Positions 1 through 6,737 of a DNA stretch of 64,000 nt are shown here, one piece after another (positions within the stretch are counted from its first letter, which is position 1; every line of letters starts with the position of its first letter). The notes under the pieces were generated by a model that searched no databases, was not told the DNA's origin, and saw nothing but the letters and a program-made list of their open reading frames with translations. This DNA comes from a bacterium (GTDB taxonomy: Bacteria; Actinomycetota; Acidimicrobiia; Spongiisociales; Spongiisociaceae), in NCBI GenBank assembly GCA_028820935.1, contig JAPPHZ010000029.1, positions 215,437 through 279,436 of the forward strand, in the 5' to 3' direction. A program made the position numbers and the translations under genes.

Positions 1-345
1 GGAGCGGAAGGTGTCCAGCTCGACGCCGGGCATCGCCAGGTACCTGACCCCGGCCGCCGAGGCGCGCTGGCGTGCCCGACTCGATCCGATGAACAGGCTG
101 GTCAGCTCGATCGCGGCGCCGGCCGACAGGAGGGCGCCCGCCACGGCCGTGGGTGGCTCCGCGCCGGGTATGAAGGGCATGGGCATGGCGGCTATGACCG
201 GGACGGCCCTCCGGGACGACACCCCCTCCACGAACCGGGCCACGACCTGCGTGTCTGTTCCCTCGTCGGTCAGCAGCAGCACTTCCTCGCCGGGCCGTAC
301 TCGCAGGCACGAGTCGAGCACGGTGTCGAAACCCGGGTACTTCAT
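1..345 (-). CDS. M29 aminopeptidase / NicX-like enzyme, N-terminal part (cut by window edge)
   Basis: The reading frame starts with ATG at 345-343 and runs open off the left edge (115 codons, no stop). The ATG overlaps the stop of the upstream M20 gene as ATGA, so the two are translationally coupled. The translation opens with MKYPGFDTVLDSCLRV, then a VRPGEEVLLLTDE strand and an alternating alpha/beta pattern ending near YLAMPGVELDTF. This resembles the N-terminal domain of the thermophilic aminopeptidase (M29) superfamily, which also contains the ring-opening enzyme NicX (2,5-dihydroxypyridine dioxygenase). The metal ligands lie in the missing C-terminal part, so peptidase and dioxygenase cannot be told apart here. 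Coupling to a dehydrogenase and amidohydrolase operon favours a catabolic role. Confidence 0.6.
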   Translation of the reverse strand, partial: MKYPGFDTVLDSCLRVRPGEEVLLLTDEGTDTQVVARFVEGVSSRRAVPVIAAMPMPFIPGAEPPTAVAGALLSAGAAIELTSLFIGSSRARQRASAAGVRYLAMPGVELDTFRS

Positions 346-5729: not shown

Positions 5730-6251
5730 TCAGGCCAGTTCTACGTTCAGCGGTACCGGGTTGCTGAGCGTGTGCCCGACCGGGGAGCTGTTGACGACCT
5801 TGTCGTGGAGGGCGGCAAGCTGCTCGTCCGTGGCGTCTGAGTCCAGGTGGACCTTCACCGACAGGCCGCCGTAGCCGGCGTGGCCGGGCTTCAGACCCAG
5901 GAAGGTATGCAGGTCCAGATCGCCGCTGACCTCGATCTTGAGGTCGTTGATCTCGACTCCGGCCGCCGAGGCGTTGGCGGCGTATCCGACCGCCAAGCAG
6001 TTGCCCAGCGCTCCGAGCACCTGCTCCGCCGGATTGGGGGCGGTGTCGGTTCCGCCGAGCCCGGCCGGCTCGTCGGACGGGATCGGGTCGAAGTCCCGGA
6101 TCGAGACCTCGGAGCGGAAAGCGCCCGTCCAGTTCACCGTGGCCTGCCATTCGGTCTGGCCCTGCTCCGGGTCGTCCGCCACGGCGGCGACCAGGGCGCC
6201 GACCGCCTGCAGGTCTACGTCATTGAGTTGCTGTTCGGTTTTGGTAGTCAT
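5730..6251 (-). CDS. OsmC-family protein lacking the second redox cysteine
   Basis: 173 residues from ATG at 6251 (MTTKTEQQLND), with a modest GAAAGGG ribosome site. An upstream in-frame Met at 6299 gives an unconserved Thr/Arg tail. The OsmC/Ohr fold is shown by VLGALGNCLAVGYAAN, which carries the first conserved cysteine, and by the C-terminal SPVGHTLSNPV segment. OsmC/Ohr peroxidases use a Cys pair to reduce organic hydroperoxides. Here the second position, normally Cys in a CPV-type motif, is Ser (NSSPVGHT). It may be a one-Cys or YhfA-like member with another thiol or sulfur function. It lies 95 bp downstream of the Cys-containing small ORF and the SAM riboswitch, so methionine/sulfur status probably governs it. 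Confidence 0.82.
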   Translation of the reverse strand: MTTKTEQQLNDVDLQAVGALVAAVADDPEQGQTEWQATVNWTGAFRSEVSIRDFDPIPSDEPAGLGGTDTAPNPAEQVLGALGNCLAVGYAANASAAGVEINDLKIEVSGDLDLHTFLGLKPGHAGYGGLSVKVHLDSDATDEQLAALHDKVVNSSPVGHTLSNPVPLNVELA

Positions 6252-6346
6252 CGATGGCCCTTTCGTTGTCGTACCCGTCCGGGTGCGCGTTTGCGACACC
6301 GGATGGGCGGATTCCTGACGCCGGGTTTGCTCTCGGGTGCTGGCGA

Positions 6347-6466
6347 TCAGCAGGACAGGACGAGCTGTCCCGGGCTATTCACCCGAGAGCACGAACACGC
6401 GCGGTTGACCCAAGCGGGGAAGGCGCGGGCCGGCATCGGGCCGAAGGGGGTTCCGTGAAGGTACAT
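6347..6466 (-). CDS. 39-codon Cys-containing small ORF behind the SAM riboswitch
   Basis: ATG at 6466 is preceded by AAAGGAG eleven bases upstream, a better ribosome site than that of the following OsmC gene. The peptide has three C-terminal-half cysteines (ACSCS and a final Cys as last residue) and no transmembrane segment or known domain. It sits between the riboswitch (6537-6615) and OsmC (starts 6251). It could be a functional micropeptide, or a leader ORF whose translation senses Cys-tRNA, as polycysteine leader ORFs do in mycobacteria. That comparison is by analogy only. No homologue was recognised. Confidence 0.45.
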   Translation of the reverse strand: MYLHGTPFGPMPARAFPAWVNRACSCSRVNSPGQLVLSC

Positions 6467-6536
6467 GGGCAGCGGTTCTCCTTTGTCGTTACGCGCTCCG
6501 TAGTGAGCGCCGACAGCGGAGTCCGCCGCAGGCTGC

Positions 6537-6615
6537 CTCATCGATCAGGCATTGGCACCGAACGAATCGGTTGCCGCGGTTTCGTAGGGCCTGTCCCTCC
6601 ACCGCTCTTGATAAG
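6537..6615 (-). promoter_or_regulatory. SAM-I (S-box) riboswitch aptamer
   Basis: On the minus strand the segment starts CTTATCAAGAG and continues with GGTGGAGGGAC, GGCCC, a GAAACC/GGCAACC block, then GGTGCCAAT and closes with GATGAG. These are the invariant S-box elements in order: P1 5' strand, kink-turn, P2, junction J3/4 and P1 3' strand (CTTATC pairs with GATGAG). The aptamer is compact (79 nt) with a short P3 (ACCGATTCGTTCGGT). Downstream a GCGCTC/GAGCGC hairpin (6493-6510) lies just before the AAAGGAG of the 39-codon ORF, with no T-run, so control is more likely translational. S-boxes bind S-adenosylmethionine and usually shut off Met/SAM synthesis or transport genes. Here the downstream genes are a small ORF and OsmC. 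Confidence 0.92.
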
Positions 6616-6737
6616 CGCGTTGTTGGGGAATGTTTGCACCCGACCGTGCTGGTGTCAAGGTGACAGCCGAGTCTGTGCCGAGAGTCACGAGAAAACGCCG
6701 AGGCCTACCAAGCCGGCCTTGTCCTGAAGACGGGTCG

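Follow-up and report, generated by a model that had tools for sequence, protein, structure and literature searches.

What does a SAM-I riboswitch control where the gene behind it encodes an OsmC-like protein, not an enzyme of methionine biosynthesis, and a very short ORF lies between the two? The window considered here (the whole 64-kb stretch of DNA analyzed) contains such an arrangement on its minus strand. A preliminary description had recognized an S-box core there, followed by a hairpin, a ribosome site, a 39-codon ORF with a C-S-C motif, and an OsmC gene, and both this order and its coordinates were right. The Infernal scan with RF00162 that it proposed placed a SAM-I riboswitch aptamer at 6535–6617 (minus strand; cmscan 69.6 bits against a gathering cut-off of 44.4, E = 3.3e-14). 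The match spans the full model, positions 1–108, and is the only one to any Rfam family at the gathering threshold in the whole 64-kb window. By its sequence, the aptamer is a standard member of the SAM-I (S-box) class, and would be expected to bind SAM.

Just upstream of the ribosome-binding site of the short ORF (AAAGGAG, 6478–6484, minus strand) is a platform hairpin, GCGCTC/GAGCGC (6493–6510, minus strand), kept in relatives as GGCGCTC..GAGCGC. The hairpin of the preliminary description is thus present, although a stronger one further downstream, TGCTCTCGGGTG/CACCCGAGAGCA, had been missed. The 5′ P1 strand of the aptamer, ACGCGCTT (6613–6620, minus strand), is complementary to 6498–6491, and the pairing ACGCGCTT:GAGCGCGT is proposed as the SAM-free alternative to P1 in the expression platform. 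This helix is present in all composites of SAM-I and the leader discussed below except the metY ones of family f6, where the leader begins directly after P1. It is also found, with covarying sequences, at many metH/metE-type sites. Over 48 sites, the P1 strand pairs better with its own partner than with permuted partners (z = −5.1; permutation z values here and below ignore relatedness among copies and are hence inflated), while no covariation of the platform was seen within the composites alone, where the sequence is invariant. Because the P1 complement lies just 5′ of the first ORF whether that is a met gene or a leader, the leader takes the place of the SAM-regulated gene.

The downstream gene, osmA (5730–6251, minus strand), encodes a 173-aa protein with a Pfam OsmC domain (PF02566, 61.9 bits, cut-off 27.5). 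The nearest NCBIfam model is OsmC_like_Se (OsmC-related (seleno)protein), at 64.3 bits and below its cut-off of 95. In the alignment Cys85 is the single invariant cysteine, and the second site, which we take to be the position of the second catalytic cysteine in OsmC/Ohr peroxidases, reads SPVGH. OsmA therefore has the OsmC domain but not the two-cysteine peroxidase site. Proteins of this kind may plausibly act on thiols or organosulfur compounds.

OsmC-like genes behind SAM-I riboswitches

The genome to which the window belongs (3.3 Mb, 97% complete) contains two SAM-I riboswitches and no others, both upstream of OsmC paralogs. At the second locus (contig C27:25180; L003, 6181–8419) the aptamer is followed by an SD sequence, a 32-codon ORF with CMCC, an inverted repeat, and the OsmC gene. 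The encoded protein, OsmB, is 28% identical to OsmA; a flavin-dependent oxidoreductase related to MSMEG_0569 is encoded closely behind the OsmB gene in all 21 loci checked.

There are 78 SAM-I matches in this genome and 58 relatives, of which 77 were read. An OsmC-like gene lies 3′ of the riboswitch at 35 of these 77 sites across the order, and all 24 sites in 13 family genomes (the window's genus and the two nearest genera, g2 and g3) precede OsmC-like genes. The remaining sites in the order include some before metH-, metE-, and metY-like genes. In two cases, L086 (G016:C13) and L088 (G048:C97), SAM-I precedes Cys-rich proteins of about 210 aa, unlike met genes.

Nearly all relatives repeat the order riboswitch, leader, osmC. 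If a met gene had been lost and only its SAM riboswitch remained, a target that is not a methionine biosynthesis enzyme would be accounted for, and the preliminary description had allowed for such a rearrangement if relatives had a met gene at this locus. None was found behind the riboswitch there, and the same layout is kept in both paralogs and across the order; this conservation rules out a rearrangement or a vestigial met gene, to which we give practically no weight. The comparison instead supports the OsmC-like genes as conserved members of the SAM-I regulon.

To that extent the suggestion of a new regulon member holds, but a SAM riboswitch before osmC has a precedent, since in Candidatus Pelagibacter ubique osmC lies 3′ of a SAM-V riboswitch and is strongly induced by sulfur limitation (PMC5069961). 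The two cases have osmC behind a SAM riboswitch in common. They differ in riboswitch class (SAM-V there, SAM-I here), in host (an alphaproteobacterium and an actinobacterium), and in the leader, no Cys/Met leader having been described for Pelagibacter. A link between single-cysteine OsmC-like proteins and sulfur supply, matching the Pelagibacter induction, would be a lead on the role of these proteins.

Proteins 98% identical in named records are mostly from Acidimicrobiia MAGs. Orthologs of osmA are also found in Nocardia, Gordonia, Kribbella, and other Actinomycetes, and a pattern search 5′ of these found neither SAM riboswitch nor leader.

The Cys/Met leader and its RNA structure

The 39-codon ORF (MYLHGTPFGPMPARAFPAWVNRACSCSRVNSPGQLVLSC; 6347–6466, minus strand) matches no Pfam or NCBIfam family. 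A short ORF lies between aptamer and osmC in nearly every relative, and its SD-led start is conserved in the copies of the genus. The N-terminal parts have no similarity among relatives; toward the C-terminus there is a cluster of Cys/Met codons and then S-R-V (variants CSCSRV, CMCCPGSRV, MMCPCGRSRV, MAMMPSSRV). The same leader is found between SAM-I and metY in family f6 (LCCSMPCSRV, CCCMPCSRV), and also 5′ of a gene for an ABC-transporter substrate-binding protein. The metH/metE-type SAM-I sites have no leader, and the gene starts directly behind the aptamer.

The clustering is pronounced. In the ten codons before the stem S1 described below, 192 of 530 are Cys or Met, compared with 32 ± 5.4 after shuffling (2000 shuffles, maximum 56); in the N-terminal parts just 15 of 494 are. 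The codon three before S1 (−3) is Cys or Met in all 53 non-redundant elements, as TGT in 39 and ATG in 14, an exchange which argues that it is read as a codon. In the window it is Cys24, the first of the regulatory codons TGT-TCG-TGC (Cys24, Ser25, Cys26; 6389–6397, minus strand). TGC never occurs at this position (6397–6395 in the window), though it is common at neighboring ones, a hint that the nucleotides themselves are constrained in addition to the amino acid.

The SRV codons are almost fixed, with CGG and GTG each in 49 of 53 elements, and the main synonymous change is TCT/TCC, covarying with the other arm of S1. These codons form the 5′ arm of S1, so their conservation is that of RNA rather than protein. 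In the window this arm, TGCTCTCGGGTG (6380–6391, minus strand; codons C-S-R-V), starts at the ORF's second Cys codon and pairs with CACCCGAGAGCA (6328–6339, minus strand) in a 12-bp stem stronger than the platform hairpin. Across the copies, S1 has 11–14 bp, with the 3′ arm some 15–50 nt downstream. Its loop, 19 to 55 nt long in all but one of the 53 elements, contains in the window an inner hairpin S0, GGACAG/CTGTCC (segments 2:3; 6353–6370, minus strand). The leader stop codon, TGA at 6349–6347, opens the 5′ strand of a further helix, S2 (TGA(T)CGCC, 6342–6349, minus strand), immediately 5′ of the 3′ arm of S1. The S2 3′ strand, GGCGTCA (6316–6322, minus strand), lies behind that arm, giving a pseudoknot topology. 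S2 could cross S1 as in an H-type pseudoknot, or alternate with it. Across the copies it reads GAACGCC/GGCGTTC or covarying variants such as GACGACCGCC/GGCGGTCGTC. The whole window leader folds with z = −3.8 relative to shuffles.

Both stems covary. In a set of 22 diverse sequences, both partners change in 7 of 19 pairs (18 cells), with a covariation score that none of 500 shuffles reached; partners slid out of register give at most 12 cells, and the score drops by at least half. For S2, four of seven pairs have compensatory changes. Compared with permuted partners, the elements' own arms pair better in S1 (z = −8.9) and S2 (z = −11.1) over the 53 non-redundant elements and in S0 over 32 (z = −8.7), values inflated as noted above and with many of the matches found by a model whose training set was made up of such elements. 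In 46 of 53 elements the stop codon of the leader precedes the 3′ arm of S1 by 9–16 nt, a fixed place despite the wide variation in loop length. A ribosome on the Cys/Met codons would mask the S1 5′ arm, and one at the stop codon, the S2 5′ strand. The locus thus has two features of an amino-acid leader-peptide attenuator: a short, SD-led ORF with clustered regulatory codons, and competing structures (S1, S2, S0) placed where a stalled or terminating ribosome would mask them.

The preliminary description spoke of a thiol-type protein governed by the sensor; the micro-ORF is no gene for such a protein. Cys pairs and a good ribosome site would suit a small thiol peptide working together with OsmC, but the N-terminal part varies freely, Cys is exchanged for Met (G015 has Met only), the S1 codons hardly vary synonymously apart from TCT/TCC, which covaries with arm 2, and the same leader is found 5′ of unrelated enzymes. 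Such a peptide is very improbable, and on the comparative evidence the micro-ORF is a Cys/Met-codon leader peptide, predicted to be translated, with its own conserved RNA structure.

The pseudoknot could conversely be a metabolite-binding aptamer, i.e., a second riboswitch, with the overlapping ORF secondary. The conservation of CGCCACCACCCGAGAG, the H-type topology, and the stable fold would all fit. The conserved Cys/Met codons and the stop position make sense only if the ORF is translated, however, the connecting loop L3 is unconserved, and Cys and Met are retained in leaders without S1 (e.g., MTFDSSAVPLMGSCMPRS in G019:C24). We consider a second aptamer improbable, though somewhat less so than a thiol peptide, and keep to the leader-peptide reading. 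The S1/S2 module matches no known Rfam family; besides SAM, the window gives chance matches only, at E up to 10.

The leader element also occurs independently of SAM-I. The model built for it (R1) finds it in 45 of 59 genomes (E up to 0.1). Across the class (296 genomes), its strong matches (E < 1e-4) are confined to the order, and among 396 genomes of the phylum there is no match below 1e-4 outside the order. Weaker matches in the phylum lack a Cys/Met leader and are apparently in unrelated sequence, and a spread beyond the order was rejected. By cmscan checks, the SAM-I aptamer is missing in line from 24 of the 53 non-redundant copies. These precede rhodanese/sulfurtransferase, MetZ, SsuA-type, and DUF4395 genes as well as some osmC genes, giving the element as a whole a regulon of OsmC, MetY, MetZ, rhodanese, SsuA, and DUF4395. 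Since the copies without SAM-I lie 5′ of metZ, rhodanese, ssuA, and DUF4395 genes, the element marks a sulfur regulon, in a large and mostly uncultured lineage of the Acidimicrobiia, and this is an independent fit with sensing of Cys and Met.

Several individual loci deserve mention. In L225 (G040:C247) and L234 (G267:C2, 8757–9080), SAM-I and the leader-pseudoknot element are divergent, on opposite strands; a MetH-like gene is behind SAM-I in L225, and the element strands of the two carry a metZ or rhodanese gene. In L246 (G130:C11; 61–579, minus strand) the leader element precedes a gene for a 173-aa protein without Pfam or NCBIfam match, possibly an unknown sulfur protein. A contig with an OsmC leader element, L226 (G050:C114), also has a c-di-AMP riboswitch (RF00379, 73.4 bits; 126–265, minus strand).

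A proposed two-layer sulfur switch

We think it probable, from the sequence comparisons, that the SAM-I riboswitch and a leader-peptide attenuator form a two-layer switch for sulfur status before OsmC. In the first layer, the SAM-I platform would act at the start of the first ORF. For metH/metE-type sites this ORF is the enzyme; in the window it is the leader, so SAM would set translation of the leader (or completion of the transcript). In the second layer, scarcity of charged tRNA-Cys or tRNA-Met would stall the ribosome at the obligatory codon −3, where it would mask the S1 5′ arm and block the S1/S2 pseudoknot, taken as the OFF state. Segments 2 and 3 would then pair, holding the anti-Shine-Dalgarno sequence of many copies and leaving the downstream ribosome site free. 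With Cys and Met plentiful, the ribosome would reach the stop codon and leave, the S1/S2 fold, including in many copies an anti-SD:SD pairing, would form, and osmC would be off. High SAM would have the same outcome by silencing the leader, while low SAM together with scarce Cys or Met would give a stalled ribosome, a broken S1, and expression of osmC. The comparison of relatives establishes the aptamer, the leader ORF with its Cys/Met codons, S1, S2, S0, the place of the stop codon, and the sulfur regulon, and from there we infer SAM binding, ribosome stalling, and the ON/OFF direction. If it is true, this would be a natural hierarchical RNA circuit, in which the output of the SAM riboswitch is the input device of the leader peptide, with an end product, amino acids, and a thiol protein joined in one transcript.

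Precedents exist for each half. In mycobacteria, polycysteine leaderless sORFs are reported to give cysteine-responsive attenuation of translation (Canestrari et al., 2020, as related in PMC9031893 and PMC9094748); these cys leaders have contiguous Cys codons, no conserved hairpin was found, and Rho-dependent action has been proposed (PMC1262725). What they share with the present locus is a short ORF that carries Cys codons and stands ahead of sulfur genes. The mycobacterial leaders are leaderless and their Cys codons contiguous, whereas here Cys and Met are mixed, S1/S2 follows, and SAM-I precedes about half of the copies; no homology is indicated, as R1 has no credible copy outside the order in the 396 phylum genomes. 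In M. tuberculosis, B12 riboswitches with translated uORFs precede metE and ppe2, the latter using termination-reinitiation (PMC11260477). There too, gene expression is set by translation of a leader that is controlled by a riboswitch or overlapped by it, but the ligand is different and no amino-acid sensing codons have been described. A Xanthomonas SAM-I riboswitch also senses uncharged initiator tRNA (PMC7270179), and so likewise combines SAM-I with a second sulfur-amino-acid signal in one leader; that RNA binds tRNA directly, whereas here a translated Cys/Met leader would be the sensor. Compared with ordinary SAM-I (S-box) riboswitches, the aptamer is alike, but the first ORF behind it encodes a leader peptide, and OsmC is the final target.

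In the open-licence literature we found no report of SAM-I feeding a Cys/Met leader, nor of the S1/S2 pseudoknot, and the combination of SAM-I, Cys/Met leader, and pseudoknot appears to be new. The chances seem about even that the element is a hitherto undescribed RNA family whose H-type pseudoknot is toggled by a translating ribosome, so that Cys and Met are sensed at once. On its own it would serve genes of sulfur import and homocysteine, and beneath SAM-I it would be a gate with several inputs (SAM, Cys-tRNA, Met-tRNA) before OsmC-like proteins and MetY. The copies would lend themselves well to comparative work on whether two amino acids can be sensed through a pseudoknot under ribosome control.

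Output of the leader element

How the fold would affect the downstream gene can be considered from the sequences around S1 and the leader stop. S1 is no classical terminator, since it is not followed by a U-run: TTTT is found after it in only one of 53 copies, and an intrinsic terminator at this position is ruled out. Of the 53 copies, 19 have an anti-SD sequence, CUCCU, at the end of the leader, and over 51 copies the leader ends pair better with the SD of their own gene (−7.8 kcal/mol) than with those of others (−6.8 kcal/mol; p = 0.0004), as in TCGCACTCCTGA with TCAGGAGTGCAA. Covarying anti-SD:SD pairing in many copies favors control of translation. It is supported in part of the copies only, which rules it out as a universal mechanism, and in the window copy the pairing of leader stop and SD is weak (−7.7 kcal/mol, without CUCCU).

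The incomplete distribution of this pairing, and its weakness in the window, leave some room for a transcriptional attenuator, in which stalled or absent ribosomes would decide a stop between leader and gene by Rho or by a U-less terminator. The Rho-dependent action proposed for mycobacterial cys leaders (PMC1262725) would be a parallel. Given the missing U-run and the covariation of anti-SD with SD in many copies, we regard this as the less likely alternative, though a much stronger one than the second aptamer considered above. For the element in general we infer translation, rather than transcription, as the output of the two-layer switch; the output level could be translation or Rho-dependent termination, and for the window copy either translation or Rho would serve.

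A few osmC loci have SAM-I and a Cys/Met leader without S1: L054 (G019:C24), L018 (G032:C58), L065 and L023 (G030), and L051 (G055). The leaders at such loci read MTFDSSAVPLMGSCMPRS (G019:C24), ..THRCPMSSG, or ..THRCPMSN. The SD of the gene in G030:C4b and G055, GGACATC, is the complement of the leader codons GATGTCC, which suggests direct masking of the SD by the leader sequence.
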